Shown: positions 19,501 to 39,456 of the stretch, piece after piece | Layout: each line of letters starts with the position of its first letter | How positions within the stretch are numbered: the first letter of the stretch is position 1 | DNA from: Symbiodinium natans | Lineage: Eukaryota; Sar; Dinophyceae; Suessiales; Symbiodiniaceae | DNA: 64,000 bases | Assembly (NCBI GenBank): GCA_905221605.1 | Contig: CAJNDS010002151.1 | Span: forward strand, 124,001 to 188,000 | Direction of reading: 5' to 3' | Notes under the pieces: model-generated | Database searches by the model: none | Seen by the model: the letters and a program-made list of their open reading frames with translations, nothing else | What the model was told of the DNA's origin: nothing | Translations under genes and position numbers: made by a program

Positions 19501-20646
19501 TGGCCCTTCACCTGGACGGGTCACCAGAACATTGATCTGCATGCCTCCTGAGAAAGCAACAATGGCCGTGCCAGATTTATGGGTAAGCACGCCCAGAGGG
19601 TTAGTCACCTGACAGTTGAAGGCATGCCTCTGCTGAATCATACTTTGGAGTTCTCTGTCAAACGCAGCCTCAAGATGTTCGTTGGCTGGTGACAACCATG
19701 AGAAATGAGCATTAAAGTCCCCAATCACACCAACATCCCACCCAAGGTAATTTGGCTGAGCTCTCAGTGACTCCCACTCAGCGAGGCGATCTCGCCAAAA
19801 AGCGCGTTTTGTCGCTACTGGGTAGCCTTTGTGCGGCGCGTACACGCAAAGCAGGAGAAGGCTACGCTGGTCAGAGTCTGGCGTTGCAGGCCACTCCAAC
19901 CATACGCTACGTTCGTCCCCTACCCCGGCCACAGGAACCACTAGATGGGAAGCTTCCTTTAAAATTAAAGCAGCGACTGTGGTACGTTCCACCGAACGTT
20001 CCCCTGCCCACACGTAGCCTGACCACTCAGGCCACACGGCCCCTGGGGCCAGGCAGGGTTCCTGAAGACTTGCTACGACCACACCATGGGCATGCAGCTC
20101 TGCAGTGAGCGCAGCAATGTGGAAGTCGTTGGTTTCGTAACTACAAAAACGCGCAAAAGCGCCGGCTATGTTAAAACTTGCCACCACCCTTGGCAAATCG
20201 CAGGGCGCTGGCTTTGCGCCCTGCATTTGGCTCTTTGCGTCAACTGCGCCCTCCCATGGCCCATAAATTTTGCTTAGGGGAAGCCCGTCAGCCAATGACT
20301 GCATTCTCTTTTCGCACCTTTTAAGGGCTTTGTTCAGGAAGGCATCAAAAGCAACGCAAAGCTGCATCTCCGTAGGCAATTCACTCAAACCGTGCGCCGG
20401 CTGTGTTTGCAGCAAAGCTCGCAGATCACGTCTGCAACAGAGAGCCCTCCACTTGCGTGCTGCTGGGGCCTCCTGATCTGGTCCAAGAAAGTCGCCTTGT
20501 AACACTGTTCCAATTTGCTCACATGCAAGGTTCAGCTTTTGTCTCCCAGCCCACTGGGCAAGGTTCTCACCAGTAGTGAGCTTCCCTAAATCATCTTCAG
20601 CATCCATGGTGCTCATCTGCCAGAGAGGCTCAGGCCAGGTGAACAA
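16546..20646 (-). CDS. LINE-1 ORF2: APE endonuclease and reverse transcriptase
   Basis: 1366 residues without interruption. The N-terminal half has an APE-type endonuclease (SLQEPCLAPGAVWPEW, VGVIGDFNAHFSWL, and later RSDHALILATL). The RT follows with motif A YLEKVDLQQGYDLAWR, motif B HGLGQGKRAAVHLFG and motif C LVQFVDDSFFLLSS. The C-terminus has a CCHC knuckle, CPGCLEAQVGLQHILQRC. Known role: nicks target DNA and primes reverse transcription of the element RNA there. FVDD instead of the more usual YADD/FADD is a divergent catalytic box. No RNase H domain. Antisense ORFs here are shadows. Confidence 0.85.
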   Translation of the reverse strand: MFTWPEPLWQMSTMDAEDDLGKLTTGENLAQWAGRQKLNLACEQIGTVLQGDFLGPDQEAPAARKWRALCCRRDLRALLQTQPAHGLSELPTEMQLCVAFDAFLNKALKRCEKRMQSLADGLPLSKIYGPWEGAVDAKSQMQGAKPAPCDLPRVVASFNIAGAFARFCSYETNDFHIAALTAELHAHGVVVASLQEPCLAPGAVWPEWSGYVWAGERSVERTTVAALILKEASHLVVPVAGVGDERSVWLEWPATPDSDQRSLLLLCVYAPHKGYPVATKRAFWRDRLAEWESLRAQPNYLGWDVGVIGDFNAHFSWLSPANEHLEAAFDRELQSMIQQRHAFNCQVTNPLGVLTHKSGTAIVAFSGGMQINVLVTRPGEGPVRSDHALILATLPGKVIVSPDKSTGASRWDSNADWGCALGSLKHAFEFLAGWAGLASRLETIRSWVADGRRRGMRLAILDRAVWYRAVLFCLAGHFSGLAVVKPPRRDRFPPSLNHHQQLLQLISPAQEISTNSQIAELPLGAQTSEMPITDKRTERVLDQYHMLRAQGRHGEAEQCLSSLLKPKSVLKTAFRDIASGEVLGLSDTLDVLKNELLARAEVCNCKPGPFHLAVEAEVREFRKKALRDTRAETDDTFEVLDVKAVVRAEKTSKSTLHFPRAAVKVADDSSLLVTWAICNLAAALGLVSTLWWREVTPIRKAGPDVVTNTENVRPIGYTDDLVGILDALWLRKTKSKLEQFSGPEQAGGKYDAGLLTIGILMALQIRSNLGLRTYLEKVDLQQGYDLAWRDGVRLNIAHAGVGGRLRLLADAALENDPVRVRIGPLVSDLINIKTHGLGQGKRAAVHLFGALVRGLADAVLECSHGVGLDVPRAVCRAFSRATAPDEPESSHHDSLWESVQGFMACYSASTPEEELREALQKLSVAQRLMVLDLWASCRQPLVQFVDDSFFLLSSLQSLKEANLKLDSFAASWKHKFKGGKKRASVLTVGTRMPADHDLGRLGDEQVCAVKTMQVLGPVIDDALSLAQQLETVCARTISLAMELGSAMTSLGLGLPLQVAQFFSRVEAAILSGSECLASSHLGWQGVIGRLNEAQYQALKRLVSSGRELSLGTGGHARLLATLNVPVRLGLRWAQRVCTARARLLILPCPNAVEQAVRASGKVTGATWLDHAASLERELQVKSDFISFATFRRLSLDSSELRKEAVKKWKRECLQPAIEKHEVRWFAAQLAAGTSGVSALGARFLCPCKSSANALRWAPWSRTIWKFHTAWTLCRLTGALPLSLWGWPNNPATVPTCPGCLEAQVGLQHILQRCVATEQYRRELLNGDATSCLSAEGDEDQLAKRIRFVGLCAVVAAAPVLPDRARR

Positions 20647-20744
20647 GACATGAGTTTAAGCCACACAAGGCCTCTCCAGCCAATCTCAAAACGAGGTTGA
20701 ATGAGAAGCGTAAGGAGACACAAGGCTCACACTCACGCACGCAC

Positions 20745-20853
20745 TCAAGCAAAACACGCACACACACACACACAGACAGACACAGGGGGGGGGGGGAAGG
20801 GGGAGAACAAGAAAGCGCGCGAAACACGCAAAGCACGCCAGAACAGCGCACAC

Positions 20854-20884
<31 letters not shown>

Positions 20885-21430
20885 GGGCACACGGGCACAA
20901 GGGCACACGGGCACACGCGCACACGTGCGCAAAAACACGCACACGCACACGCACCCGCACACACACAGCCACACACACACAGACAGACACACACACACAC
21001 ACAGACACACACAGACACACACAGACACACACAGACACACACACAGACACACACAGACACACACAGACACACACAGACACACACAGACACACACAGACAC
21101 ACCCAGACACACACAGACACACACACAGACACACACAGACACACACAGACACACACAGACACACACACAGACACACACACAGACACACACAGACACACAG
21201 ACACACACAGACACACACAGACACACACACACACCCAGACACACACAGACACACACAGACACACACAGACACACACAGACACACACAGACACACACAGAC
21301 ACACACAGACACACACAGACACACACAGACACACACAGACACACACAGACACACACAGACACACACAGAGACACACACACACACACACACACCGACGCAC
21401 ACTCCAACACGCCCCCCCACCCCCACACAC
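20745..21430. repeat. (CACACACAGA)n block inside LINE-1
   Basis: About 680 bp of CA-rich simple repeat between ORF1 and ORF2, dominated by a 10-bp ACACACACAG-type unit and preceded by CACG and GGGCACAC blocks. All frames are open on both strands, so the long Thr/His or Cys/Val ORFs are not taken as genes. Confidence 0.9.
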
Positions 21431-21579
21431 AAGGCCAAACTGCAACAAGCAGCCCCTCTCACCAAGCAAAACTCTGCAAGTTGTATGCTCATCTGCTGCA
21501 AAGTGCTTTCTCAACATGAAGCATTCAGGGTACAGAGGCATTTTTCTTCACAACGCTGGCGGACTCATATGCTTGCGAG

Positions 21580-22488
21580 CTAGCCTCGGGGCAGGTACTT
21601 CATGATGTCAATGTCGACTGCGGCTACATTGATGGGGGAGGCGTTCCCGACGGGTCCGAACTTTGCAATGATGGGCGCCACGAAGTCCACTAGGTTCTGG
21701 CGCGTGCTTTGTATTGTCAGAACCTTGGACTCCACCGTGTACTGTAGGGACATCTTGCTGACCTTTCTAAAAGATGCACGGGCTGGGACATGCAGTCTGA
21801 AGACCACCTTACGGCTGTCCCCTCCCTTTTCTGCAAACCATGTTGACGCAGGGGGCCGCTTCCACACCTTTCCTTCCTCCTCCACCAGCCACTCAACTTC
21901 CACCTTCGGGCTGCCATTGAATAAGTCCTGAACACGTAATGCGACATCCTTGGGTGATTTGACCGGTTGGTCGAAAGTCAAACATAGCTGGGTAGCGGCC
22001 CCTGTCGCTTTCCCCTGGGCTGTGTTCTGGAAAGCATCAGTGATCGATTTGAGGCACTGCTGCACATGTTTCTGCGCCAGGTTGACTTGTCCTCTGTCGT
22101 AACGAGGTGTGTAGACCGTGCGGCCTTTGCTGGGGCTAGCTACCCTAGGCGACTTACTCTCTGGATCCAACTCTTTGATCAGGCTGGCAACGGTGTCCTT
22201 CAGCAGCCTAAGAGCTGCAGATGCCGACAGTCTATCGCTGTGATCTTCAATCTGGTCACAGCACATTCGCATAGTGCCTAGGATCTCTTCAATCTGTTCC
22301 TGGTTCATGTCATCGGCAGACTTGACGGGTGTGCGTGGGGCAGCAGTATGTTTTGCCGCTGCTTTCGGTCGGCTCGCATTTCTGAAACGCCGGGAGTCAG
22401 AGCGGCTGCGGCTTCTATCAAAGTGCTTAGGTCTACTTCCGCGTGCAGACGCTCTAGACAATCTTTCCCGCGAATCATCTCTCCACAT
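21580..22488 (-). CDS. LINE-1 ORF1: Arg/Ser-rich nucleic-acid-binding candidate
   Basis: About 302 residues from MWRDDSRERLSRASARGSRP. The N-terminus is rich in SR/RS and basic residues and the C-terminal part is a folded-looking region (VVFRLHVPARASFRKVSKMS). The frame extends further upstream, but the extra part is low complexity with poly-Phe, so the internal Met is preferred. ORF1 products of LINEs usually coat the RNA; no zinc knuckle is seen. Confidence 0.65.
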   Translation of the reverse strand: MWRDDSRERLSRASARGSRPKHFDRSRSRSDSRRFRNASRPKAAAKHTAAPRTPVKSADDMNQEQIEEILGTMRMCCDQIEDHSDRLSASAALRLLKDTVASLIKELDPESKSPRVASPSKGRTVYTPRYDRGQVNLAQKHVQQCLKSITDAFQNTAQGKATGAATQLCLTFDQPVKSPKDVALRVQDLFNGSPKVEVEWLVEEEGKVWKRPPASTWFAEKGGDSRKVVFRLHVPARASFRKVSKMSLQYTVESKVLTIQSTRQNLVDFVAPIIAKFGPVGNASPINVAAVDIDIMKYLPRG

Positions 22489-22739
22489 TCTTGCAAAGAG
22501 AAGAACTACGTTGGGGGACAAAAACGGAAGGCCAAACAAAAAAGATTCGAGCCTCAGAGCGAACAAACAAAAAAAAAAACAAAGGCAACAACCCCCCAAC
22601 CCCCCCTCCAAAAAAAAACAAAAAAAAAAAAAACAAGCAACATGGGCAGTAAAACTTGCATGCACTGCACTCGCTTTGCGGCCTTGAGGTAAAAAGTGGG
22701 GGCCAAGAACGTGCACTCAAAACAAGACCTCAAAGAAAT

Positions 22740-23040
22740 GCGTCATGTATGTGAGGCCGGCGTGTGTGTGCGCGCAAACGGACGGCGTGTGCACACTGCA
22801 TGTTTGTACACTCAGCGCCATGTGTGTAAGGCCAGCGTGTGCGTGCGCGCAAGCGGCCGGCGTGTGCAAAGTGTATGTCAGTGCGCTCAAACCAAAAGCT
22901 CCACATGTGTGTAAGGCCGGCGTGTGCATGCGTGCCAGCGGCCGGCGTGTGCACGGTGCATGTTAGTTTGCCCAAGCCAAGTGCGTCGAGTCTGTCAGGC
23001 TGGCATGTGTGTGCGCAAACGGCAGCGTGTACATCATGCA
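22740..23040 (-). repeat. Four tandem 5' monomers of LINE-1
   Basis: Four diverged copies of an about 75-90 bp unit containing ATGTGTGTAAGGCCGGCGTG and GCGGCCGGCGTGTGC. They occupy the 5' UTR, like the promoter monomers of some LINEs. The role is inferred. Confidence 0.7.
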
Positions 23041-23139
23041 TAGTAAAGGGTTTAGGGGCCCCTTCAAAGTTGACGCATCAGCCATCTGAGATCTGAGGGT
23101 CGACCAGCCGAGGCATGCCAAGGCCAGGTCAAAAAAAAA

Positions 23140-23260
23140 ATGTCAAAAGCGGAAATCAAGAATGCCTGCGGCATCTGCACTGCATGTGCAAGCATGCTGG
23201 GTCTTGTGGACCCTACAAACCCTGACGAATTCGACCCTCGCCCCGCAAAGGCTTCAGCGG
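23140..23260 (+). CDS. Candidate exon, possibly with start codon
   Basis: ATG opens MSKAEIKNACGICTACASML then GLVDPTNPDEFDPRPAKASA, with the donor GCGG|GTTTAGGG. Three Cys in CGICTAC could bind metal. A small exon (KPGCKR) may follow at 23285. Confidence 0.5.
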
Positions 23261-23334
23261 GTTTAGGGTTTAGGGTTTGCCCAAGCCCGGATGCAAAAGG
23301 GTTTAGGGTTTAGGGTTTAGAGTGTATCAACTTA

Positions 23335-23446
23335 TGCTTGTAGAGCAGGTAACGACTCTAATTTTTTCCCGGGCAAGGGGGGGCATTACAGTCCCTATGT
23401 ATCCCCAAAGGGTTACTCTTTGGTTCCTTAGGCTATTGGACAACTA
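23335..23446. mobile_element. Introner family B
   Basis: GTAGAGCAGGTAACGACTC...CCCCAAAGGGTTACTC...CTATTGGACAACTAAG. Confidence 0.55.
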
Positions 23447-23522
23447 AGGCAAGGGCTTTCGGTTTTTTTGATATCCCTAAACCCTATAAACCCTAAACAC
23501 TAGACCCTAAAGGGGGTCTTAG

Positions 23523-23606
23523 TTGTCGGTCTTGACCGATCACTCTTCTGCATGGCGAGGCGTGCTTTGGCAGTCAGAATCCACACCCAAGCATTTAGAG
23601 TGTTTT
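23523..23606 (+). CDS. Weak candidate exon
   Basis: Open frame VVGLDRSLFCMARRALAVRI then HTQAFRVF and TAG. Boundaries not fixed. Confidence 0.3.
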
Positions 23607-23618
23607 AGGGTATGAATT

Positions 23619-23735
23619 CTACCCGTGCAGCCCAGCTGAGCTCTTTCTTGGACACTAAACCGGGTTTAGGGTTTAATTCAGCAAAAAGGGTATAGGTCTA
23701 CCGGTAAAGCCTGCTGCGCTCTTTCTTGGACACCA
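23619..23735 (+). repeat. Diverged about 38-bp direct repeat around a TTTAGGG-bearing insert
   Basis: Both copies share GCTCTTTCTTGGACAC and flanking CTACC-GT. They enclose about 40 bp with TTTAGGG. Same layout as the telomere-repeat introns, but older or less exact. Confidence 0.45.
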
Positions 23736-23862
23736 AGGTTTCTGTTCCAGTTGAGCAGCTGCAGGCATCGAGACGACTGGACTCGCAGTTGGCTACGACC
23801 GTCGTCGCCCAGGTCTTCGGCGATCCGTCTAGCGCCTTTGCTTCCAGAATCCTCAGGGCCCA
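23707..23862 (+). CDS. Candidate exon
   Basis: After GGTAAAG the frame reads LLRSFLDTKVSVPVEQLQAS then RRLDSQLATTVVAQVFGDPS and SAFASRILRAHE. The 3' end lies in or before a TTTATAGGG array. Family not recognised. Confidence 0.55.
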
Positions 23863-23874
23863 TGAGTTTTTTTC

Positions 23875-24014
23875 GGGTTTATAGGGTTTATAGGGTTTGT
23901 AGGGTTTGTAGGGTTTATAGGGTTTATAGGGTTTATAGGGTTTATAGGGTTTATAGGGTTTGTAGGGTTTGTAGGGTTTGTAGGGTTTGTAGGGTTTGTA
24001 GGGTTTGTAGGGTT
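23875..24014 (+). repeat. 9-bp TTTATAGGG / TTTGTAGGG array
   Basis: Fourteen or so 9-bp units in three homogeneous blocks (TTTATAGGG, TTTGTAGGG). It encodes KPY-type repeats antisense, not taken as a gene. Confidence 0.95.
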
Positions 24015-24184
24015 TAGGATTTTGCATATACCTGAGCCCTCAAGCTGCTACGATCTCAAAACCCCTTTAAGACCCAACTAGCACGATACAGGTATACCCT
24101 AGGTGTAAGTTCGGATTCAGAGGCTATGTGGGGAGAGGGCTTGTCACGTCGAACTCTTCTTAAAACGGGTGTCCCAGAGCACGA

Positions 24185-24424
24185 ATGGTTATGACTGACA
24201 ACCCCCCCTCCCCCTCTCAATCCTACTACCCCGGGTGTCTTGAAGCCGGCCCTATAGACCTCTTGAACCCCCTCACCCTGAACCTCCTTAGCCCTTTTGA
24301 CGCCACAAAGACCTCTGAAGATCTAAACCCTCAGCCCAGTACCGTAGCAGGGCAGAAGACCCACGACCAGATGCCGCGCCATGATCTCTTCATCTCCTCC
24401 GAGATAAACCTTAAATACGTTTAG
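24185..24424 (+). CDS. Candidate coding region, unknown
   Basis: Open frame of 79 codons. Its 3' half, AGQKTHDQMPRHDLFISSEI, after an AG at the GTAG in ACCGTAG, is the most gene-like part. The 5' half is proline-rich and could be intronic. Confidence 0.35.
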   Translation: MVMTDNPPSPSQSYYPGCLEAGPIDLLNPLTLNLLSPFDATKTSEDLNPQPSTVAGQKTHDQMPRHDLFISSEINLKYV

Positions 24425-24892
24425 GGTTTAGGGTTTAGGGTTTAGGGTTTCAGGGTTTCAGGGTTTCAGGGTTTAGGGTTTTAGGGTTTTAGGGTTTTAG
24501 GGTTTTAGGGTTTTAGGGTTTTAGGGTTTCAGGGTTTTAGGGTTTCAGGGTTTCAGGGTTTCAGGGTTTCAGGGTTTAGGGTTTAGGGTTTAGGGTTTTA
24601 GGGTTTTAGGGTTTTAGGGTTTTAGGGTTTTAGGGTTTTAGGGTTTTAGGGTTTCAGGGTTTTAGGGTTTCAGGGTTTCAGGGTTTCAGGGTTTGAGGGT
24701 TTGAGGGTTTTAGGGTTTTAGGGTTTTAGGGTTTTAGGGTTTAGGGTTTCAGGGTTTTAGGGTTTTAGGGTTTTAGGGTTTTAGGGTTTTAGGGTTTTAG
24801 GGTTTTAGTAGGGTTTTAGTAGGGTTTTAGTGGGTTTTAGTAGGGTTTAGTAGGGTTTTAGGGTTTTAGGGTTTTAGGGTTTTAGGGTGTAG
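24420..24892 (+). repeat. Long mixed TTTAGGG / TTTTAGGG / TTTCAGGG array
   Basis: About 470 bp, the longest array of the window. Blocks of TTTAGGG, TTTTAGGG and TTTCAGGG alternate in a higher-order pattern, ending in TTTTAGTAGGG units. Confidence 0.95.
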
Positions 24893-25079
24893 GGTCTGCG
24901 GCCAAAAGGCGGATGAGCCAAATGGCTTGTCGGCTTATCGGGCAAGAAATCAGTTACACTTGCCTAATTTTGTTCAAGCAATCATCTCTCATCATTCTTC
25001 ATCATGATTTACAGAACATCGGGAGGGAGGGAGAGAGAGAGAGAGACGGTCAACTTTTCGTTCAAGAAGAAAAAGAATC

Positions 25080-25213
25080 TTTCGTTCACGGGACTCTCGC
25101 TTAGATCCGTGCCCCAGTTTGCCCGCATTGCCGGGTTGGGGAGTTGGGCTTCGAAGCGTTTTGATATGGCTTGAATGTTGAGGGTCGCCCGTTTTTTGAG
25201 ACCGATCCGGTTA
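25080..25213 (-). CDS. Candidate exon on the minus strand
   Basis: The minus frame after the acceptor CAACCACCAG reads RIGLKKRATLNIQAISKRFE then AQLPNPAMRANWGTDLSESP. This is one of few stretches where the minus strand looks clearly better than the plus. It suggests a minus-strand gene spanning about 25.0-25.7 kb. Confidence 0.5.
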
Positions 25214-25381
25214 CTGGTGGTTGGGAGCAGGCCGCGTAGCCCCATATATGCCATATGGGCCTTCCCAAAGTAGTGGTACGTACCCCTTTTTATACCCCAG
25301 CTGGAATAGAATCCCCTTAGAGGGACCCCCAAAAAGGGTACCACTATTTTCGGAAACCCCCCCCCCCCGCCCCCAATTATC

Positions 25382-25443
25382 GGCTCTTTGAGCATTTCAA
25401 ATCCAGGTGCCATCACGCTGAGGCCCGACCCGGGGAACTGCTG
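25382..25443 (-). CDS. Candidate exon on the minus strand
   Basis: Reads QQFPGSGLSVMAPGFEMLKE after a CCCAG acceptor at the edge of introner C; possible GA donor. It lies between introner C (25449) and an introner M (25265). Confidence 0.45.
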
Positions 25444-25448
25444 CTGGG

Positions 25449-25553
25449 TAGCCCAGTGGTACCCTTTACCCTTTTTTTGCGTTCTGGGTTTCCTTGTAAA
25501 GTACCCGACCAAGAAGAGGTACCCTTATTATGAGATGTCTACTGGGCTACTAA
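25449..25553 (-). mobile_element. Introner family C within a minus-strand gene
   Basis: GTAGCCCAGTGGTACCC...CTACTGGGCTACTAAG on the plus strand. Flanking exons are on the minus strand, so the palindromic family can act in either orientation. Confidence 0.55.
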
Positions 25554-25562
25554 GGCTTTCAC

Positions 25563-25598
25563 TCAGGCAACTCCATCTTTCTGGCGAAGAGCCAGGCA
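25563..25598 (-). CDS. Small candidate exon on the minus strand
   Basis: Acceptor TTCTTCCCCCCAG, frame AWLFARKMELP, donor GA|GTGAAAG. A Cys-pair frame (QTSTCPDCFKAP) further upstream on the minus strand may be another exon. Confidence 0.4.
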   Translation of the reverse strand, partial: CLALRQKDGVA

Positions 25599-25804
25599 CT
25601 GGGGGGAAGAACGGGGGGGCAGAGATGAGTCAGCTAGGGGCCTTGAAACAGTCTGGGCATGTGGAGGTCTGGGTTTGCGATTCTTCGGTTTGCCCCCTAA
25701 AACCCGAAACCCTAAACTCTACACCCCCCAAAAAGGGTTTCGGAGAAGAGGCTGGGGTAAAAAGGGCACAAGAGTACACGTCGGGGCCCGCGCCTCGGAT
25801 CTTA

Positions 25805-25935
25805 TGGTCCCTTACCTCCTTCAAAGGGTTCTGAAGTATGGGCCCTTGGGTTTTCTAGGGAAGATAAGGGGTATAGACGGAACCCCTTTAGGGCCCATAC
25901 TACGGGACCATGTAACTACCCTGAGAATGATCTTT
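25805..25935. mobile_element. Introner family G
   Basis: ATGGTCCCTTACCTCC...GGGCCCATACTACGGGACCA...CCCTGAG. Confidence 0.6.
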
Positions 25936-25965
25936 CACGTCAGCCTCCGGTCGGGAAAGTGTTTC

Positions 25966-26014
25966 GGGTTTAGGGTTTAGGGTTTAGGGTTTAGGGTTTA
26001 GGGTTTAGGATTTA
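25966..26014 (+). repeat. TTTAGGG array
   Basis: Six units. Confidence 0.9.
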
Positions 26015-26290
26015 GGGGTTTCAGGGCTTGCCGGGCAACCGCTAGTTGGGACGTAGAGCGAACTGCCTTGACATTTGCTAAGTGTCACTTACTTAGGCTA
26101 TAATGCGTGGGCACTTGAGGGACTTCGAAGTGGGTTAGCAGTACAGTCATAATTTGTTAATAAGTACCATGAACCTCCAAGTACCGAGCAAGCCGAAAAC
26201 TCTGAAACGAAGATGCTTCCTTATTCGGTGGGTATGGGTCATTCATTCTTCGACGTGCACAGGCGCTAGAGGGGGAAAACATCCAAAAGC
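26015..26290. other. No gene recognised
   Basis: Unique sequence with stops in all frames. Possibly intergenic between the minus-strand gene and the plus-strand exons that follow. Confidence 0.5.
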
Positions 26291-26529
26291 CCTGAACCCT
26301 AAACCCGAAACCCTAAATTTGAAACCCTAAGCCCCACTTCCCCTTCCAGCCACAGCACCGATTGTATAGGGGCTTGTATAGGGGAATCAGATTAAGGTCC
26401 CCTTCTATAGGGGTCCCTCCTTATATCCCTTGGGAAGGGAAGCCGCGACCCTCCCAAACCCAAACCCTAAACCCTAAACCCTGTAACATTAAGCATTAAA
26501 CGGGCGGTGCTTTGCGAAGTTGAAGTCAG

Positions 26530-26592
26530 GTTCTGTTGTTTTCCATCCTGATCTTCGAGATGCGCAAGAGGCCAGCAGTGGCTCTAGAATAG
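26530..26592 (+). CDS. Candidate terminal exon with hydrophobic start
   Basis: Acceptor GAAGTTGAAGTCAG, frame VLLFSILIFEMRKRPAVALE, stop TAG at 26590-26592. Confidence 0.5.
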   Translation, partial: VLLFSILIFEMRKRPAVALE

Positions 26593-26696
26593 GGTGTAGA
26601 GTGTGCAGGGTTTATAGGGTTTCGGGCAGTTTAGGGTTTAGCCCCCCCGCCCCTCCCCAGGGTTTAGGTTTTAGGGTTTAGGGCAAAGGGTTTAGG

Positions 26697-26815
26697 GTTA
26701 CTAACCCCCCTAGGTTCTCCCCTTAAATAACCTTAACAAGGCTTAATTATCCCTAAATAGCCTTAATTATGGGGGAACCTAGGGGGGGAGTATAGAGGGG
26801 AGTAATAGGGGAACC
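26697..26815. mobile_element. Introner family K
   Basis: ACCCCCCTAGGTTCTCCCC...AGGCTTAATTATCCC...GGGGAACCTAGGGGGGG; copies at 15630 and 30673. Confidence 0.55.
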
Positions 26816-27010
26816 CACGAGATTTGGCGGGGAGGTCTACCAAAACAGGGCTAGAGTAGCGGCTATTGTAGGGGTTACAGTATGTCTAGTGGGACATGCT
26901 TCCCCACTGTGACATGCCCAATTCTGGGAAGGTTCCGTTTGCGGCATAGGGTTTAGGGTTTAGGGTTTAGGGTTTAGGGTTTAGGGTTTAGGCTTATCTT
27001 GAAGCTTCAG

Positions 27011-28212
27011 CGGCAGAACAGATGGCTAAACCCCTTCAGAACTGAGCTTCTCAAAATCTGCCTTGCATCTTCCGCTGATGAGGACTACGCACGAGTTCCA
27101 TTCTGTGATCTTGGGGAATGATGTGCTGGCGGGCTTCAGTGGCTTTCTGCCCTTGTATGTGTCGGGCAAGAAGTCTCCGTGTGCTGAAGTCCAGCTGACG
27201 ATGGAGATGCCAAAATTAATGAGCAAGGAGGACGGGAACACTGCTGCTAGTACTTGATGTTTTCATTATATTTTCTAAGCGTAATCTTCTAATAATCTTC
27301 TAATTCTTAGGCTCAATTACAAAGAAATTTTCTAATAATCTTCTACTTCTTAGGGTCAATGCAACAAGTCATGTCAAATGCTGCCGAGACAGGCAATGCT
27401 GGATTCCGTGGAGGACGAGTGCAACGAACCTCCGACTCTTAAGGCGGTCTGGCATTCGGCCCTTTTGCCCCAGGGCTCCACCCTAAACCCTAAACCCTAA
27501 ACCCTAAACCCTAAACCCTAAACCCTAAACTCTTGTTGTATGTACTCTATTTAGGGACTCGGGGGCTGGGTTTGAGATTCCAGCGTTTTCTCAGCTTGTT
27601 CCTGAACCCTGCAAAGTCCCGTTAGCCCCTCGCGCCGGCCGGAAGGCGGTCGCCATTCAAGTTGCCATTCCGGTGAGTGACAACCAGCATGAGGAGAAGC
27701 CACAGAAGGCTCGACCGGCGACTCGGTCTAGTGTCCCAGGGTTTTTTGGTTAGGGTTTAGGGTTTAGGGCTTAGGGTTTAGGGTTTAGGGTTTAGGGTTT
27801 AGGGCAGTTTAGGGTTTAGGGTTTAGGGTTTAGGGTTTAGGGTTTAGGGTTTAGGGTTTAGGGTTTAGGGTTTAGGGTTTAGGGTTTAGGGGTTCAAAAG
27901 GGTTGATCTGCACAGGGCACCCTTTGAGAACTCTCGAGGATGCTCGTTAGCCAAAGCCCAATGCTCCCGCCCAAAACGAGTGGATCTCCTCCATGTTGAA
28001 GGCCCTTCCTACTCAACTATAAGGCTAGGGTTTAGGGTTTAGGGTTTAGGGTTTAGGGTTTAGGGTTTAGGGTTTAGGGTTTAGGGTTTAGGGTTTAGGG
28101 TTTAGGGTTGAAGGCCCTTCCTACTCAACTATAAGGCTAGCCCTACGGCCCCCTTGGAGGTTGGCAGCCCCCAAAAATCAACTTGTAGGCCCTCAACCCC
28201 ATGAGCCTTACA
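27011..28212 (+). CDS. Five-exon gene with telomere-repeat introns, unknown protein
   Basis: Exons 27011-27094 (RQNRWLNPFRTELLKICLAS), 27369-27474 (SCQMLPRQAMLDSVEDECNE then PPTLKAVWHSALLPQ), 27584-27740 (FSQLVPEPCKVPLAPRAGRK then AVAIQVAIPVSDNQHEEKPQ), 27916-28023 (APFENSRGCSLAKAQCSRPK then RVDLLHVEGPSYSTI) and 28136-28212 (LALRPPWRLAAPKNQLVGPQ). Each junction keeps phase. Introns 27475-27583 (GC-AG), 27741-27915 (GT-AG) and 28024-28135 (GC-AG) carry or consist of TTTAGGG/CCCTAAA arrays. The first junction is less certain, because 27120-27256 holds another open frame (GFLPLYVSGKKSPCAEVQLT) that could be an extra exon. No domain recognised. Confidence 0.65.
27276..27360 (+). repeat. Direct repeat in the first intron
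   Basis: TCTAATAATCTTCTA(A/C)TTCTTAGG occurs twice in AT-rich sequence. Confidence 0.8.
27741..27915 (+). other. Telomere-repeat intron, GT-AG
   Basis: Starts GTTTTTTGGTTAGGG, continues as about 20 TTTAGGG units and ends TTGATCTGCACAG. Phase is kept between VPG and APFENS. Confidence 0.65.
27995..28140 (+). repeat. Perfect 34-bp direct repeats flanking a TTTAGGG array
   Basis: Copies at 27995-28028 and 28107-28140 are identical, both starting GTTGAAGGCC and ending AAGGCTAG. The 78 bp between them (28029-28106) is pure (TTTAGGG)n. The array is therefore an insertion that duplicated its target. Confidence 0.95.
28024..28135 (+). other. Telomere-repeat intron created inside a duplicated target, GC-AG
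   Basis: Donor ATAAG|GCTAG in the first 34-bp copy, acceptor TATAAG|GCTAG in the second. Removing the 112 bp restores the uninterrupted frame STI-R-LALRPPW exactly. The second copy also gives a pyrimidine-rich tract (CCCTTCCTACTC) before the acceptor. Confidence 0.75.
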
Positions 28213-28214
28213 GC

Positions 28215-28276
28215 TAAACCCTAAACCCTAAACCCTAAACCCTAAACCCTAAACCCTAAACCCTAAACCCTAAACC
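28215..28276. repeat. CCCTAAA array
   Basis: About nine units. Confidence 0.95.
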
Positions 28277-28288
28277 CCCCTTATCGCC

Positions 28289-28328
28289 ATGGCCAGGCTG
28301 ATGCTGCGACTCCGGAGGAAAAGCCCAG
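28289..28328 (+). CDS. Weak candidate exon
   Basis: Frame MARLMLRLRRKSP with a possible GC donor CCAG|GCAAGG. Boundaries uncertain. Confidence 0.3.
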
Positions 28329-28387
28329 GCAAGGCTGAGCCAGCCCCTGTGTCTCTGTGTTTGCCAGGATGAGGGTACAGCCTAGTA

Positions 28388-28486
28388 GTAGAGTAGGTAA
28401 CCTTTAACCTTTTTTGGGGTAGCAGAATCCCCTTAAAATCCCAAAGGTTAACCTTGAATTCCCCCAGGTTACTGGACAACTAAGAC
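28388..28486. mobile_element. Introner family B
   Basis: GTAGTAGAGTAGGTAACC...CAAAGGTTAACC...GTTACTGGACAACTAAG. Confidence 0.65.
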
Positions 28487-28504
28487 AGTGGCCCGTCCTG
28501 GTGT

Positions 28505-28936
28505 GTGACCTTACGCAGACAACAGATTGGGGGCCGGGGTGGGAACCGCTCCCGCACGCTCGCGCGCATGCACCCTGAGTCTGCAAAATGCCTGCTTCCA
28601 GGTGGCTGTGACTTTACTGTTCTTCCATCTTCGTTGCCATCGTTGCGTTTGTTTAGCCTAAATGTTAGCCTATCGTTTCCCAACTGTTTTGGTCGTCATT
28701 TAGGTTCCAACCTAAATTCTGCAAGGTATCGGAAACCCAAGGACAGCACTGTGCTGTTGAATCATCACGAGGCATCTCCGTGTCGCAACGGGACTTGCGC
28801 GAGCTTGTGGTCAAGCCTGTTGCGCATACCTGTTTTCCCTTTTGCTTTGGTCATCGCTGAAGATGTGTGCTGTGTGCACTCTTGTGAATGTGGGCTTACG
28901 CTGGAGAACCACACATGGGTAGAGCGCGTAATTGGT
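28505..28936 (+). CDS. Open frame of doubtful coding status
   Basis: A 149-codon frame without repeat interruption. Its end reads ALVIAEDVCCVHSCECGLTL. The middle is low in coding character. Could be a 3' untranslated region or an unrecognised exon. Confidence 0.2.
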
Positions 28937-29019
28937 TTAGGGTTTAGGGTTTAGGGTTTAGGGTTTAGGGTTAAACCCTAAACCCTAAACCCTAAACCCT
29001 AAACCCTAAACCCTAAACT
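28937..29019. repeat. Head-to-head (TTTAGGG)n(CCCTAAA)n palindrome
   Basis: Five TTTAGGG units meet six CCCTAAA units at GGGTTAAACCC (about 28972). This is the layout of a telomere-telomere fusion and could fold into a hairpin. Confidence 0.9.
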
Positions 29020-29149
29020 TGGTCCATGACCTTCCACGCAGGCCCAAGCAATGATGCTTGTTTAAGACTTGATAGACATCAAGAGGTCACCACTCCCGAA
29101 GCCGCGTCCTGCGCAAGGCACAGTTCGCAAGCCAACCTTTTCATACACT

Positions 29150-29260
29150 CCCTAAGGGCCCATGTACCTAAATAGGGAATACTTAGGCCTGAAAGTACCT
29201 CCTATATAGGGACTTTGGGCCCAAGTATTGCCTGTTTAGGTACATGGACCCTCAGGGACT
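29150..29260. mobile_element. Introner family A
   Basis: CCCTAAGGGCCCATGTACC...TTTAGGTACATGGACCCTCA. Confidence 0.65.
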
Positions 29261-29269
29261 GTAACTCAG

Positions 29270-29400
29270 GTATTAAAAGAGCCAACCCGTCTGCTGCCAC
29301 AGCAGCGTCTTGCGGTAGCCACCCCTTACCCGAAGCCTTGCAAGATGGAAGCAGTTTGCCCGAGCCGACCCACTTGTCAAGCAACCTTGACCTGAAAAAC
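29270..29400 (+). CDS. Candidate exon
   Basis: Acceptor ACTGTAACTCAG, donor AAC|GTAAAC. Two frames are open: IKRANPSAATAASCGSHPLP... and VLKEPTRLLPQQRLAVATPY.... The second joins in phase to an open frame before the introner (EVTTPEAASCARHSSQANLF). Frame unresolved. Confidence 0.4.
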
Positions 29401-29419
29401 GTAAACTTTCAGCCTTAAA

Positions 29420-30250
29420 CCCAACCCCAATCCTGAAACCTGAAACCCTCAGGCCCCAATTTTTCAATGTTTTCAGGTGAAGTGTTTACCACACGAGCGC
29501 TGCACTGTTGTGCTAGTGTCTCACATGAAGGTAAAGTTTGTCACACAAGTAACAAGCAATGCATTCCTCGTCCTCAACACCGAGCCACGATGTATCAAAC
29601 AATACTGCGTGGCACACACACACTCTCTCTCACACTCTCACGTACAAGAGTAAAGCAAACCTACCCCTGCTGCCCGAAAGAAATCACATCACAAAAACGT
29701 TGCACAATGCAAGCCGAACATAGACCCCCACAGACCCGAGCCTAACGCGACACACCTGTGATGTTTCAAGTAAGAACCACAAGTAGGTTTTACACACATT
29801 TGGTATGCTCCAGCGTTTGTTTGTTCAGTGTTTTCCCTGTAAAAGGTTAGCTCTTTGGCGGCTTTGCGCTATGCATTTCTTATGCAGCAAAGAATTGTTT
29901 GACGCATGCGTGTTCTTTTTTCTGATGTTTTAGTTTCGGTGAAAGTTCAAGTATTTGATGTCCGAAATTCTTGGTTCAGGTTAAACATCGAGTCCAAAAA
30001 CTCAGGTGTTTTGGAGATTCAGGGCGCGCGCAGGCATGCACACGGACAACAACTCCTGACACCACAGGCCTGCGGCCAACTTGCAATCAGCACCCCTGGA
30101 GCCACGCCCGCATCAGGCGCTGCCGACAAGGTCGGGTGTGGGGGGGTGGATGTGGATGTGGAGTCATTCATTGCTTGCTCCTGTACCTCTGTTTTCTCCT
30201 ATTCTTCGTTCTTAGTTCCATGCCACCTTCTTGGGGGCCTCAAATAACCC
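29420..30250 (+). other. Repeat-poor stretch without a resolved gene
   Basis: Contains open frames at 29467-29745 and 29906-30247 and no TTTAGGG. Composition (many CA/TG words, TTTGTTTGTT) looks like UTR or intergenic sequence. Nothing recognised. Confidence 0.4.
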
Positions 30251-30374
30251 ACCCCTGAACCCTAAGCCCTAAACCCTAAACCCTAAATCCCTAAACCCTA
30301 AACCCTAAGCCCTAAGCCCTAAATCCCTAAACCCTAAACCCCAAACCCTCTAGGCCCTATAAGCCCTAAATTAG

Positions 30375-30468
30375 ACCACTTGAAGGTCGGAACTCGCTCC
30401 GGAAGCTGAATTCCCACCGCCTGGGCAGGGAAGGCGGTCTCAGAGAAGGGCTTGCCTATCGGTTCTTA
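30375..30468 (+). CDS. Candidate exon
   Basis: Acceptor CCCTAAATTAG, frame PLEGRNSLRKLNSHRLGREG then GLREGLAYRFL, donor TTA|GTAGGGTTTAGGG. Confidence 0.5.
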
Positions 30469-30524
30469 GTAGGGTTTAGGGTTTAGTAGGGTTTAGGGTT
30501 TAGGGTAGGTGCCAGAAATCGAAT

Positions 30525-30596
30525 CCCTCATACTTAAAGGGTGCAACATGTAAGGGTGATATGAAGTAACTAATTCGGTTCCCTGCTAAGAGCAAG
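30525..30596. mobile_element. Introner family I
   Basis: CTTAAAGGGTGCAACATGTAAGGG...TTCCCTGCTAAGAGCAAG. Confidence 0.45.
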
Positions 30597-30854
30597 CCGG
30601 TGCATTGGGCTTACAAGGCTTGCCACTCACTATGAGGAAGGCTGCGGGTTCTCCAGCATCAATGGTTTCATGGATTCCCCTACTACACCCCCCCCCCCCC
30701 CCTCTACTACCTTCCCCTAGCTTCGCCCCATGATTAAGGCTATTTAGGGATAATCAAGCTTACTTGAGGCTATTTAAGGGGAGGTGTAGAGGGGGGGTAG
30801 CAGGGAAACCAATGGTGGTTGGGTGTTGAGCCGCTGCGTCATTTTCTGCCTTGG
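30597..30854 (+). CDS. Two-exon segment across a K introner
   Basis: Exon 30597-30672 (RCIGLTRLATHYEEGCGFSS then INGFM) ends ATG|GATTCCCC (GA donor). Exon 30804-30854 (GNQWWLGVEPLRHFLPW) follows GTAGCAG and ends TGG|GTGTTTAG. Phase is kept. The intron 30673-30803 is a family K introner with a poly-C centre. Confidence 0.5.
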
Positions 30855-30954
30855 GTGTTTAGGGTTTAGGGTTTAGGGTTTCGGTGGGGTCTAGATGGCG
30901 GGGCCCTTACTACTCACTAAGCCGAAGTTTTCCCTTCAGGACCCCAAACCTATG

Positions 30955-31059
30955 CCCAAAACCCCTTAGTTGAGGTATATACCCGAATTCATAATATGTT
31001 CATAATAAGGATCCTTAATATAAAATAGGGTGTATTCCTGAATTAAGGGGTTTTGGAAG
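30955..31059 (+). mobile_element. Introner family D
   Basis: AAAACCCCTTAGTTGAGG...TTAAGGGGTTTTGGAAG. Confidence 0.6.
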
Positions 31060-31561
31060 ATCTGGGTGTTCTTAGTATTAGAGTAGGTCTCCTTTAACCA
31101 TTTTAACTTTTTTGGGGTAAAATCATCGCCTTAATTACAATCCCAAAGGTTAACCTTTAGTTCCCCTAGGTACTGGACAACTAGGCTATGAATATAGAAG
31201 CCCACGATGGCATTCTTGGGCAGCCAAAGAAAAAAGCACGTCTGGGGCTCTCATGGCAACTCCGCATCTACGTGGAATCTCAACCTTAAGAACGTAAAAC
31301 CTACGTGTTTGTAGGGTTCTCGAGAATCCTACAAGGGGACTTCTACTAAGAACCTACAAAAACAAGTGGGTTTTGGGTTCTTACCCAAAGAGCCCAATAC
31401 CCCGTAATTAAGGAATATTCCTTAAATCATATTAAGGATCCCTATGTAAATTCAGCAATATTCCTGAATTAAGGGATGTTGGGCTCTTTGGGTTAAAGAA
31501 AGCCCTCGCGCTCCTGGGTCGTTTGTGTTTTGTGCTCATTTGGAGCCCTTGCGACTACTGA
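31060..31561 (+). CDS. Three-exon 3' end of a gene, including a 15-nt microexon
   Basis: Exons 31060-31074 (IWVFL), 31185-31271 (AMNIEAHDGILGQPKKKARL then GLSWQLRIY) and 31499-31561 (KALALLGRLCFVLIWSPCDY, stop TGA). All are in phase 0. The microexon sits between introner D and introner B. The second intron holds introners L and E side by side. The C-terminus is hydrophobic (LCFVLIW). Confidence 0.55.
31075..31184 (+). mobile_element. Introner family B forming an intron
   Basis: GTATTAGAGTAGGTCTCC...AAAGGTTAACC...ACTGGACAACTAG. Confidence 0.6.
31286..31498 (+). mobile_element. Adjacent introners L and E
   Basis: L: CCTTAAGAACGTAAAACC...GGGTTTTGGGTTCTTA (copy at 55555). E: CCCAAAGAGCCCAATACCCC...GGGCTCTTTGGGTTAAAG (copies at 47758, 52380 and 55022). 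Confidence 0.55.
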
Positions 31562-31921
31562 ACCCCCTAAACCCTAAACCCTAAACCCTCATTGATTTCA
31601 AATTCAAAGGCTTCAGGCTCGGGGATTGATGGGTTCCGGAGCGCGGAGGCACGAAAATTCGAAGGCTTAAGGCCCCTTAAATCGCGAATATTTACCGGGG
31701 GGGGCCCCTAAATCCCGAAAATTTATCCCAAGCAACTCTCCAACCCAAACTCCGAAGCCTCCTATACCGAAGAAAGGCGCCAAAGCATGAAACCCCTCGG
31801 CCACCGAACCCTAAACCCTAATCCCTAAAGCCTAAATCCTAAACCCTAAACCCTAAACCCCAATCCCTAAACCCTAAATCCTAAACCCTCAACGTTAAAC
31901 CGTGGAGGCAAGAAGTCCTAG

Positions 31922-32009
31922 TATCGCCAGCCCAATCACCACGATGCCGACCTCGCATGGGCCCGTGCTTGCAGCCGCAGGTTGGATTGGGCTTATACTG
32001 GGCTTCTAG
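31922..32009 (+). CDS. Candidate terminal exon with membrane anchor
   Basis: Acceptor AAGTCCTAG, frame IASPITTMPTSHGPVLAAAG then WIGLILGF and TAG. A PNHHDADLAWARACS frame overlaps as an alternative. Confidence 0.4.
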
Positions 32010-33657: not shown

Positions 33658-33789
33658 GCTCAAAGGTCCTGGGAAATCGACGAACTGTGAGGGGTTTCCC
33701 CGGGGATTTCGGTTTCATCCCTTCTCCCGCTTTCCCTTTCCCTCTTCTCCTCTTTCTTTCTTCTCCTCCCTTCTTCGTCTGGTCCGGTC

Positions 33790-34800
33790 ATGTCCACCCC
33801 AAATGAGGAAGCCCGGAAGAAAATCCCTCTCCTGAGCCATCATGGGAGTGTACTCGAGAGGAGCTCTGGGGTGAGTGCACCAACTGCAGTAAGTGACAAC
33901 AGGGGAGGAGGAAGTGGGCAAAGACGAAAGATCCCCCCTCTAACCGAAATGATTGAGAGTTCGGAGAGGGGCAGACTCGATAGAGATGCTGACAAGAAGG
34001 ACAAGAACGGCAGAGACAGAGACCGAAACCGAGAGAAAGAGAGAGAGGCCGATTCCTTTCCGCTGGGACTGCGGAACGATGCCACACTGCCAGGAAGAGT
34101 TGTCGAGAGACCTCTGAACCTCAGGGGATTCCCTACAGGAGGAGAAATAGAGACAACCCATGCCTCTTCGAAAGCCAGGGACTCAGATGCCATGGTAACA
34201 CATGGACGGGGAACGAAGGAGCCTCTCGACTCGGATCTCCTTGGCCTGCATGTTCCTGCACCCAGTAATGCCATGCGAGAAGCAATTTCCCCCCCGCCTG
34301 CCACCAGAACCCCCAACCTCCTTGTTGCCTCGGGGTCTGCAGGAATTGTATCTAGCGATGAAGACAAAGCCTGTGCTAAAAGCCCCAACCCCAAAAAGCC
34401 TAAACTGGATGGGGAAGATCGTAGCACAGGAATTGTTGACGTGACAGATGCTGACATGACAAATGTGGAGCCCCTGCCACTGCCGGGATTTGGAGGTCGA
34501 TGTGTGAGTGCCATGAACCCGACCCTGGAAACGTATGATCTCACCGATGGTGACACTGAGGTTGAAGAGGACCTCCGGACAGATAAGAAAGACAAGCAAG
34601 AGTTGAGCGAAGACATCAAGGATGAACTAGGAATGGCCAATATGGGGCCTGCTGAGAAAGCAGCCCTTGCAGCAGCGATGGCCGCTGGTGCCCCGCCTGC
34701 AGAACAGGGGTCGCTTCCCCCGATTGGGGAACAGGCGCCGCATTCCCCGACTAAGGAACAGAGTGGGAATTCCACTGACGCTGGCCCACCGAGTTACTGA
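33790..34800 (+). CDS. LINE-2 ORF1
   Basis: 336 residues from MSTPNEEARKKIPLLSHHGS to TDAGPPSY. It is highly charged, with a KKDKNGRDRDRNREKEREAD stretch, an NLS-like NPKKPKLDGED and a long acidic region (DGDTEVEEDLRTDKKDKQEL). Predicted largely disordered. Inferred RNA-binding coat protein by position only. Preceded by a pyrimidine-rich 5' UTR of about 130 bp. Confidence 0.65.
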   Translation: MSTPNEEARKKIPLLSHHGSVLERSSGVSAPTAVSDNRGGGSGQRRKIPPLTEMIESSERGRLDRDADKKDKNGRDRDRNREKEREADSFPLGLRNDATLPGRVVERPLNLRGFPTGGEIETTHASSKARDSDAMVTHGRGTKEPLDSDLLGLHVPAPSNAMREAISPPPATRTPNLLVASGSAGIVSSDEDKACAKSPNPKKPKLDGEDRSTGIVDVTDADMTNVEPLPLPGFGGRCVSAMNPTLETYDLTDGDTEVEEDLRTDKKDKQELSEDIKDELGMANMGPAEKAALAAAMAAGAPPAEQGSLPPIGEQAPHSPTKEQSGNSTDAGPPSY

Positions 34801-34802
34801 GG

Positions 34803-35383
34803 TGCAAATTCTTCCTGCAGGCCTGGCACTTAAATTAAAGCATGCTGGAATTCAAACCCTTTTAATTAGTATGCACTTGCCTCATACACAAAGAGAAGAC
34901 TGCTTGCAAGTATGGACAGACATGATGCATGCCCTGCAATCCCTGACTGCCAAAATTCGATTGCATGATACCGTTGTAATTGGAGCCGACACGAATTACG
35001 AACTTCTAGAGCATGTACCCCGCACTCACCATAGCGATGAACGAGCTATGATGTGGCAGATGCTAAAGCGGGACTTAGGACTCTCCTGCACAAAACCGCA
35101 GGAAGACACATGGTCCGACACCAGGGGTGCCTCGTCAAAGATAGACTTCCTGTGCTACCGCAGTCCTTGCTTAGAAACCGTTTGCCAATCAGTGGTTCCG
35201 GACTCAGATTCGCTCCTTGGGAGTGACCACAAGGCGGTGACAGTTGGCTTTCGCACACTGAGAACCCCCCCTGTCAAAACCCGCAAACACCAGTCACACA
35301 AATGTGGCAAGTGGAGGGTCAATGTAGCTAAAGCGCTTGAAGAACTAGCAGCCATTCCCCCAGATGACTCGAGCAACCCGTAA
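34803..35383 (+). pseudogene. LINE-2 endonuclease, truncated and out of frame
   Basis: The frame reads PAGLALKLKHAGIQTLLISM, VVIGADTNYELLEHV, RGASSKIDFLCY and LLGSDHKAVTVGFR. The GADTN and SDH motifs fit the C-terminal two thirds of an APE-type endonuclease. The N-terminal third is missing at the junction with ORF1, and TAA at 35381-35383 breaks the link to the RT. Described as found, not repaired. Confidence 0.7.
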
Positions 35384-35484
35384 AGCATTCTAGAGCGAGT
35401 TGCAAATAAAGCAGCTTTCAGAGACAGAAGCTGTAGATACCAGGACCCTCCGGCGGTTAAAGATCTACAGGTGCGGAAGCGCGG

Positions 35485-38054: not shown

Positions 38055-38268
38055 AGAAGCCAGCATGGGAAGGGGCAGATGTGAGGGGGGGGGGGGCGGG
38101 TCGAGCAAGTAAATGCCTCAACACCTCACTTGCCTCATTTTCCTGTCCATGCAGCGTTTTGATCTACAACATAGTGATCCCCTTGATCTGTAGATTCGCG
38201 CTTTCATATCTCCATATCATGGCAGATGTTGCACTGGACCACATGCCACTCCACTTCCGGACTGGCTG

Positions 38269-39456
38269 ATGCGTGGCGCTCTCCCGGACAGCATGGATAC
38301 CCTCCTGCTGACGATTGTGACGGCGGTGATTCTGGGCATCGTGTCTGGACCCATCATGACCAAGACCCTACCTACCCTTCTGAAATGGTTGTGGAGGCAA
38401 GTTGTTAAAGTGGCCCGCTTCCCGGTCCAAGCTGCACGATATGGCTACCGTACCTGTTGCTGTCGTGGACGTGCCTCGACTGATCCCCAACAAGGAGCTC
38501 AATCAGACAGCCAAGGCCAACAATGGGCCCCACGGCACACGATGCAGGAGCATGTGGATGCTTTCTGGGAGGATGTCAGTGGAAGCCTGAAAAGCATGAC
38601 CACTCTGGTTACGGACCTCTGGAAGGAGACGAGCCGCAGCTGTGGCGAGCTGAAAATAGCCCAGCACCAAGCTGCCACGACGCTCAAGGACTCCCTTGCA
38701 GAGATAACCAAGACGGTTGAGAAGGCCTTGGAGTCGGCGGTTCGTCATGTTGAGAAGGTGCAGTTCCCGAGCCCCACCGCGGTGACGAGCATTGTGGAGC
38801 AATCTCGTACGGCCTTGCTCCAACAAGTCGGTGCCAAACTGGAAGAGCTGAGCTCAGCCCTGCAGACCGTGATGGTTGGGCACCAACGCCAATCTGCACA
38901 AAACATGGACAAGATCAGGCAAGAAGTCGTCCAACGAAGCAGGGAATTGGAGACCTACGACAAGCAACAAGATCAGCACAGTCGCAAGCAGCTAGAGGGC
39001 CTCAAGGAGATCCAGGTTGCCGTGGAAAAGATCCAGGAGACATTGGCGGGCCACACTCACGTCCTGGCCAAGCTGGAAGACATGACGGGCAAGCAAGAAG
39101 TTGCCATGGGACGGTTCGCAGAAGCAATTGACAGGATCCGGACCATGACGGAGGACAACTCGGCAGATGCAGAGAAGATCCTTGCAAGCTTGGAAGGTGT
39201 CCATGAGCGACTGGGCCCGGCCCCGCCATTCCGACAGCCTCCCCTGCCCAGGCAAACCCAAGGCCCGCCAGCGTCAGGAGGGCAAGACTATGGACAGGGG
39301 ACAACAGGCAACTGGACGGGAGTCAGACCGATCCAGCTAGCCCAGGCGATCCCGGCGATCCCAGTGCAACCGGCGAGTGGCACCATGCAAGTGAGTAACT
39401 CTCGCGGAGAGATTCTCCGAGTTGTGCTTGATCACCTGACGGGACCCAATCCCTAG
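38269..39456 (+). CDS. LINE-2 ORF3: membrane segment plus coiled coil
   Basis: 395 residues, intact, 214 bp after the RNase H stop. Residues 9-30 (MDTLLLTIVTAVILGIVSGP) form a likely membrane segment, followed by basic KWLWRQVVKVARF and a Cys triplet (TCCCRG). Residues about 100-310 are rich in heptad-like Glu/Lys/Gln/Leu (LGYKEI-type pattern, e.g. QLEGLKEIQVAVEKIQETLA), so a long coiled coil. The tail is Pro/Gln/Gly-rich. Not a known LINE protein. Position inside the SL-to-poly(A) unit suggests it travels with the element. Confidence 0.6.
   Translation: MRGALPDSMDTLLLTIVTAVILGIVSGPIMTKTLPTLLKWLWRQVVKVARFPVQAARYGYRTCCCRGRASTDPQQGAQSDSQGQQWAPRHTMQEHVDAFWEDVSGSLKSMTTLVTDLWKETSRSCGELKIAQHQAATTLKDSLAEITKTVEKALESAVRHVEKVQFPSPTAVTSIVEQSRTALLQQVGAKLEELSSALQTVMVGHQRQSAQNMDKIRQEVVQRSRELETYDKQQDQHSRKQLEGLKEIQVAVEKIQETLAGHTHVLAKLEDMTGKQEVAMGRFAEAIDRIRTMTEDNSADAEKILASLEGVHERLGPAPPFRQPPLPRQTQGPPASGGQDYGQGTTGNWTGVRPIQLAQAIPAIPVQPASGTMQVSNSRGEILRVVLDHLTGPNP

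Follow-up and report, generated by a model that had tools for sequence, protein, structure and literature searches.

How new introns originate has long been asked, and the agents documented to produce them en masse are transposon-like introners. Introns can also be gained by double-strand break repair, in which filler DNA placed between short direct repeats becomes the intron. In mammals, telomere repeats are inserted at double-strand breaks, some of them with duplication of the target, which available passages of PMC2246262 report for 6 of 130 rodent and 4 of 25 primate loci, together with a register match at 67–80% of the insertions; as far as those passages go, target duplication at telomere-repeat insertions is therefore not new. 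Dinoflagellate introns with GC-AG or GA-AG ends have likewise been described (PMC11453091, in the portion available). Searches of the open-licence literature, within the text that they returned, yielded no paper on telomere repeats and intron gain, on telomeric repeats with introns in Symbiodinium or on interstitial telomeric repeats in dinoflagellates; the accessible parts of PMC11782384 and PMC9498494 hold nothing on the subject, and neither "telomer" nor "double-strand" occurs in the text of PMC9860276. The original prediction, made from the sequence alone, had called telomere repeat as an intron-making insert a case not yet established; this agrees with the absence of a paper in these searches, but the accompanying target duplication was already known in mammals. 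A telomere-repeat intron with a readable target duplication would suggest that the cell's repair and telomere machinery can make introns.

The window, by which we mean the whole stretch of Symbiodinium natans DNA that was analysed (64,000 nucleotides), contains on the plus strand an inserted TTTAGGG array of 78 bp (28029–28106), bracketed by two copies of a 34-bp target duplication (27995–28028 and 28107–28140, plus strand) that agree at 34 of 34 bases, which confirms the first element of the original prediction. Counted in register, the array runs from 28026 to 28109 and comprises 84 bp, that is, 12 perfect TTTAGGG units. The 34-bp copy fits the array register for 3 nt at each end (TAG on the right, GTT on the left), which leaves either boundary uncertain within 3 nt; outside the register, the duplication amounts to 28 bp. 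The locus is pure telomere repeat inserted into unrelated DNA, as in the mammalian interstitial type. As an array it is not unusual, being one of 144 in the window, and its flanking repeat is the strongest among the window arrays whether these are counted as 144 or, by another definition, as 119. When the assembly (759,417,921 bases in 2543 contigs) was searched with a 94-nt query starting with the focal copy, the matches listed comprised all 94 nt once and 34 nt once more, both at the focal locus, and included no empty paralogous site of the array; this search scores the best candidates only, so a lone 34-mer elsewhere is still possible. A relic telomere or chromosome fusion was considered and rejected, as the same 34 bp stand on both sides, and the view that the array is an insertion with target duplication rather than a relic chromosome end has been upheld, since the same footprint recurs and five other arrays have empty paralogs, as described below.

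The array lies in a plus-strand gene (12217–31992), which we take to be polycystin-like, and in which 12217 marks no more than where an open frame with an F5/8C domain starts. This open frame (12217–13014), searched alone, gives the F5/8C domain a score of 39.4; in the joined protein, Pfam assigns the domain 23.7 bits, which is under the curated cut-off of 28.2, and a Pfam search of the hand-joined protein found no GPS domain. The homologous part of the gene, from 13646 to about 31992, was followed exon by exon with tblastn and a spliced-alignment script. Residues 480–950 of the joined protein have at least six relatives among 8000 candidates scored, five of which show 98–100% coverage at 52–55% identity and carry GPS domain PF01825 in the annotation of the database, and three of the six bear Symbiodinium names. 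An array is present in 12 of the 17 introns listed for the gene, a list in which 16080–23722 is a bridge between two alignments and not a predicted intron, and in none of the 14 exons tested (overlap of more than 8 bp). Only one of the 17 introns, 14361–14449, is nearly all array, the next highest being 57% array. Three other introns with arrays (14594, 27444 and 30131) have in-register flanking repeats of 8–9 bp, and those of the remaining array-bearing introns measure 0–5 bp and those of the five array-free introns 3–6 bp.

Spliced alignment to the homologous protein P0005 placed the focal array inside one larger intron in all eight settings. In five of the eight, the intron ends were exactly 27709 and 28296 (AAG|GC...CAG|G), giving a predicted GC-AG intron of 588 bp on the plus strand that contains the focal array as well as the arrays 27725–27906 and 28213–28278, and that follows a predicted exon at 27646–27708 on the same strand (AVAIQVAIPVSDNQHEEKPQK). 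At the cheapest intron cost (two of the eight settings), 45 or 12 bases of 27892–28213 were used as exon, and 9 of 40 shuffled tails likewise put an exon within this interval. The right end of the intron is weakly supported: the exon at 28297 carries a score drop of 13 and was used by 5 of 40 shuffled tails.

The original prediction had instead made the focal array a new intron of its own, 28024–28135, lying between coding segments and spliced at the AAG|GC of both copies. Both copies do contain AAG|GC, a 70-codon frame is open over the join, the prediction for 14.4 kb (see below) is closely similar, and homologues are poorly conserved here, so that a lineage-specific exon is conceivable. The 34-mer holds two AAG|GC sites, however, which makes one such site weak evidence, and although splicing from copy to copy restores the frame as claimed, it does so by construction for any exact duplication and thus does not argue for coding. 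None of the eight spliced alignments gave the intron 28024–28135. The frame joined across this splice (70 codons) has a codon score of −0.195, whereas ten exons of the gene, scored in their true frame and left out in turn (nine matched by homologues and one with the F5/8C domain; the true frame was best in 9 of 10), range from 0.00 to 0.29. Of 329 windows taken as non-coding, 44 have an open plus frame, and in 64% of these the score equals or exceeds that of the joined frame. No candidate relative of the 70-residue flanking peptide was returned by a search that compares only proteins of similar length. An early hand model had also placed a near-pure array intron near 14690–14762 and treated a long open frame as coding, where the homologues give a 197-bp GA-AG intron (14594–14790) that merely contains an array; an open frame over an array is consequently no evidence of coding here, and for this reason the open frame at the focal site was not trusted. 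The interval 28024–28135 is, by prediction, not flanked by coding sequence. The claims that the 34-bp copies are coding sequence, whose open frame has a codon score in the range of DNA assumed to be non-coding, and that the array forms its own intron are accordingly not supported, the latter being given little chance. From the P0005 alignments, the weak codon score and the lack of a peptide relative, the focal insertion probably lengthened an existing intron rather than forming its own.

The arrangement that was expected at the focal site is instead predicted some distance upstream, at 14.4 kb in the same gene. A decayed telomere array of 70 bp, inserted in minus orientation (14366–14435), stands between two plus-strand copies of a 19-bp target duplication (14347–14365 and 14436–14454), which are identical at 18 of 19 positions and both encode FSLQGL. 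The AAG|GC within each copy supplies both splice sites of a predicted plus-strand GC-AG intron of 89 bp (14361–14449) that consists of the array plus one target copy (87% array by the array limits of the script) within conserved coding sequence. Spliced alignment to P0005 removed this intron in 16 of 16 settings, in which intron cost, splice bonus and donor set were varied, and P0006–P0009, with one setting each, gave it as an intron in four of four cases; a sixth relative, P0010, begins further on, and its coverage lies outside the site. The conserved coding sequence is thus interrupted where five homologous proteins are continuous, through SNAA(G/A)IFS(L/V)(Q/E)GLQSL, and reading through the array leads to a stop shortly past its start. 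With one mismatch between the copies and mutations in the array, this insertion looks older than that at the focal site and does not resemble an error of assembly. On the evidence of the duplication, we infer that the insertion created the predicted intron. The expectation that an array and its duplication yield an intron by way of an AAG|GC in each copy therefore fails at the focal site but fits 14361–14449, with five homologous proteins in its favour. RNA structure was considered as a feature of this intron and dismissed (z −0.07).

Introner-like sequences are also present. One repeated introner-like sequence (GTAGTAGAGTAGGTAACC...) occurs in the window at 14917, 28385, 31095, 1400 and 1332, and its copy at 14917 falls in a predicted intron (14909–15018). 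In a separate stretch (L020, 2000–4600), introner-like elements (CCTTGGGGAC...) with telomere arrays inside lie between ankyrin-repeat frames, and one further element of this stretch is related to copies without an array, which occur in the window and within a kinesin intron.

Telomere-type arrays are abundant in the DNA sampled. Of the 144 arrays in the window, 75 lie on the plus strand and 69 on the minus strand. In the first 12 sampled stretches (L012–L023; 113,362 bases, including 5,000 N in L023), exact heptamer arrays of at least 14 bp number 366 and cover 11,343 bases, or 10.0%, compared with 8.55% of the window. Coverage is uneven, from 0 to 24% per stretch, with none in 2 of the 12 stretches, and no array was found in 20 stretches of kinesin genes (14,620 bases, exons and introns), so that array introns look uncommon rather than pervasive in conserved genes. 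At about 32 arrays per 10 kb in the sample, and with filled and empty copies of repeat elements for some arrays, the genome offers a directly testable system. Two large retroelement-like stretches of the window (16300–23000 and 33700–44400) are nearly array-free; the former sits in the gene gap 16080–23722, and its (CAATCA)n tail runs into an array. Arrays of variant units (GGGTTTATA, GGGTCTA and CCTAAAAC) at 23875–24016, 57510–57562 and 2573–2768 suggest that arrays probably also grow by local copying. At 45082–45535, three units of ~150 bp are each followed by, or hold, a short telomere array, a pattern that suggests a single insertion and its later amplification, and at 28934–29018 two abutting head-to-head arrays resemble a telomere fusion point. 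TTTAGGG arrays also occur on five viral contigs of a public collection (L001–L005), which proved of no use to the question, and a scan of viral contigs with a retroelement protein found nothing.

Insertion with target duplication recurs in the sample. With telomere-like letters masked, an exact repeat of at least 8 bp lies within 10 bp of both edges in 6 of 119 window arrays, where 60 shuffles gave 0.08 on average; in the window plus 18 stretches (237,362 bases, six stretches beyond the first 12 being used for duplication counts only), such a repeat was found at 11 of 428 arrays against 0.75 in 12 shuffles. Masked counts miss duplications that end in the telomere register, such as that at L024 8815, and they are superseded by a score that allows the repeat to extend into the array register: by this score, 13 of 419 arrays (9 of the 428 having been dropped by an end and length filter) reach at least 10, against 0.68 expected (10 shuffles, largest 1.38). 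The array 47621–47652, one of the 13, was removed by hand from the list of clean sites because it lies within a tandem repeat with a period of about 42, and several others among the 13, such as a pair in L019, L024 3455 and window 59924, are short or in part resemble repeats. The clean duplications, a list that is our own choice, are those of the focal site (34/34), L020 8078 (31/32, with a few non-telomeric bases adjoining the array), L024 8815 (22/23), L024 2138 (20/21), the 14.4-kb site (18/19), L017 3764 (13/13) and, by eye, L029 5732 (18/21). The other 406 of the 419 arrays fall under the cut-off, without recognisable duplication; some of them may be old, and some may have arisen otherwise. 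The array at L024 2138–2174 (20/21, GAAG|GC) was tried as a further intron and set aside: frames of ~70–80 codons cross the join in two of six frames, the others stop, and the case is no stronger than the focal one.

Copies that lack the array allow the inserted state to be compared with an empty one. Both flanks of the 428 arrays were aligned by BLAST to the window and 38 loci, and an empty site was called where paired matches of at least 20 bp lay near each other and were separated by almost no telomere repeat. This approach identified an empty paralogous copy for 5 of the 428 arrays (11 pairs), three of which show the duplication by BLAST: on the empty copy, the overlap between the two flanks is 11 bp at L024 8815 (five pairs; 22–23 bp when the letters are read directly), 29–31 bp at L020 8078 (two pairs) and 18 bp at window 15466 (two pairs). 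At L024 1519 and L025 4535, the flanks do not overlap on the empty copy but leave net gaps of 8 and 4 bp, respectively, and at L024 1519 a 13-bp repeat is readable. A repeat-element copy in L020 holds an array absent from two related copies. Within the window, a plus-strand intron (15356–15534) contains a terminal-inverted-repeat element X with an array inserted near its 3′ end, and two empty copies of X in the window point to a duplication of about 18 bp. A short element with terminal inverted repeats (TAGCCCAGTGG..., about 105 bp) occurs in the window at 7134, 11301, 15364, 25443 and 52205, one copy lying within an intron and another apparently split by an array.

The priming-side register match, meaning the number of bases at the end of the first copy that agree with the TTTAGGG register, was scored at seven duplicated sites (others, such as L029, being left out) and measures 3 (focal), 2 (14.4 kb), 1, 6, 5, 0 and 2 nt. 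A match of at least 1 nt is thus present at 6 of 7 sites in this small, hand-picked sample, L017 being the exception, against an expected 25%, and the matches fit priming by telomerase. No preferred array phase was found at the starts or ends of 42 pure arrays. The duplication length at the seven sites varies from 13 to 34 bp, which is not the constant 3–9 bp of introners.

We consider it likely that the focal array arose in one event of insertion at a break within an existing intron, and that the same event in an exon with AAG|GC would yield an intron. A staggered break would leave 5′ overhangs of about 31–34 nt, and fill-in would then produce two target copies, as the perfect 34-bp repeat suggests. 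Telomerase would extend one filled-in 3′ end (...GGCTAG), of which TAG fits the TTTAGGG register, a step proposed because most of the other duplicated sites that were scored also show a register match; the gap could then be closed by end joining at a 3-nt match, GTT. A hit in an existing intron of the polycystin-like gene, as homology predicts for the focal site, would be spliced out with the rest of that intron. After a hit in an exon with AAG|GC in the duplicated stretch, the copies could supply the 5′ and 3′ splice sites, and the array plus one copy would be spliced away with the protein unchanged; 14361–14449, as predicted from homology, fits this outcome. It is a tentative further suggestion, which we would rather doubt than assert, that telomerase, in repairing breaks, keeps supplying new introns, in which case duplications with AG|GC or AG|GT turn into introns at once; if so, genome upkeep, and not a transposon, would feed intron gain.

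Two other routes of insertion, each of them unlikely in our estimation, share parts of this footprint. In target-primed reverse transcription, a retroelement- or telomerase-like enzyme would nick the target, prime on it and leave a variable duplication of the LINE type. LINE insertions have target duplications of variable length, which the lengths of 13–34 bp here recall, and reverse-transcriptase elements occur in the window, one (CAATCA)n tail running straight into a telomere array; however, no clear TTTAGGG tail stands at either of the two element ends read, and the array beside the (CAATCA)n tail may belong to the element or to the target. Alternatively, telomeric fragments or circles could have been captured in break repair without telomerase at the site, which was proposed earlier as an alternative (PMC2246262, in the passages available). 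Captured fragments could leave a similar footprint, and the lack of a preferred array phase speaks for this route, but the register matches at 6 of 7 sites, in a small and chosen sample, exceed what capture predicts.

Explanations without an insertion fare worse. That the 34-bp repeat was made by tandem duplication or slippage, and that the array grew later from a chance seed, is very improbable: telomere-type seeds are common here and some variant-unit arrays probably grow by local copying, but at several unrelated sites the array fills the space between the copies with little or nothing else, and where other arrays have empty paralogs, these carry the target just once. An assembly artefact, in which a gap between overlapping contig ends was misfilled with telomere repeat, would account for a perfect 34-bp repeat around a low-complexity tract, and the 5,000 N of L023 are possibly such a gap, or a withheld stretch; the recurrence of the footprint across contigs and the older examples with mutated copies and arrays (14.4 kb, 18/19) nevertheless reduce it to a most remote chance. 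Insertion at a break, with telomerase extending one end, is the reading that we retain as likely.

In this reading, the insertions share with mammalian interstitial telomeric sequences a one-step insertion into unrelated DNA, duplication of the target in a minority of cases and a register match (PMC2246262, in the passages available), and they differ in that the arrays make up about 10% of the sampled DNA, the duplications reach 34 bp and one array constitutes a predicted intron. With introners, the predicted 14.4-kb intron would share insertion into coding sequence, splice sites drawn from the duplicated target or a neighbouring exon and an mRNA that is usually unchanged; introners, however, form families of similar copies, some with 3–9 bp duplications and terminal inverted repeats (PMC9860276, in the part available), whereas at the 14.4-kb locus the inserted DNA is telomere repeat and the duplication is 19 bp. 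The splice type predicted for 14361–14449 is that of the dinoflagellate GC/GA-AG introns, from which the intron differs in content (PMC11453091, in the part available). The layout is the same as in intron gain by break repair, the filler here being telomere repeat.
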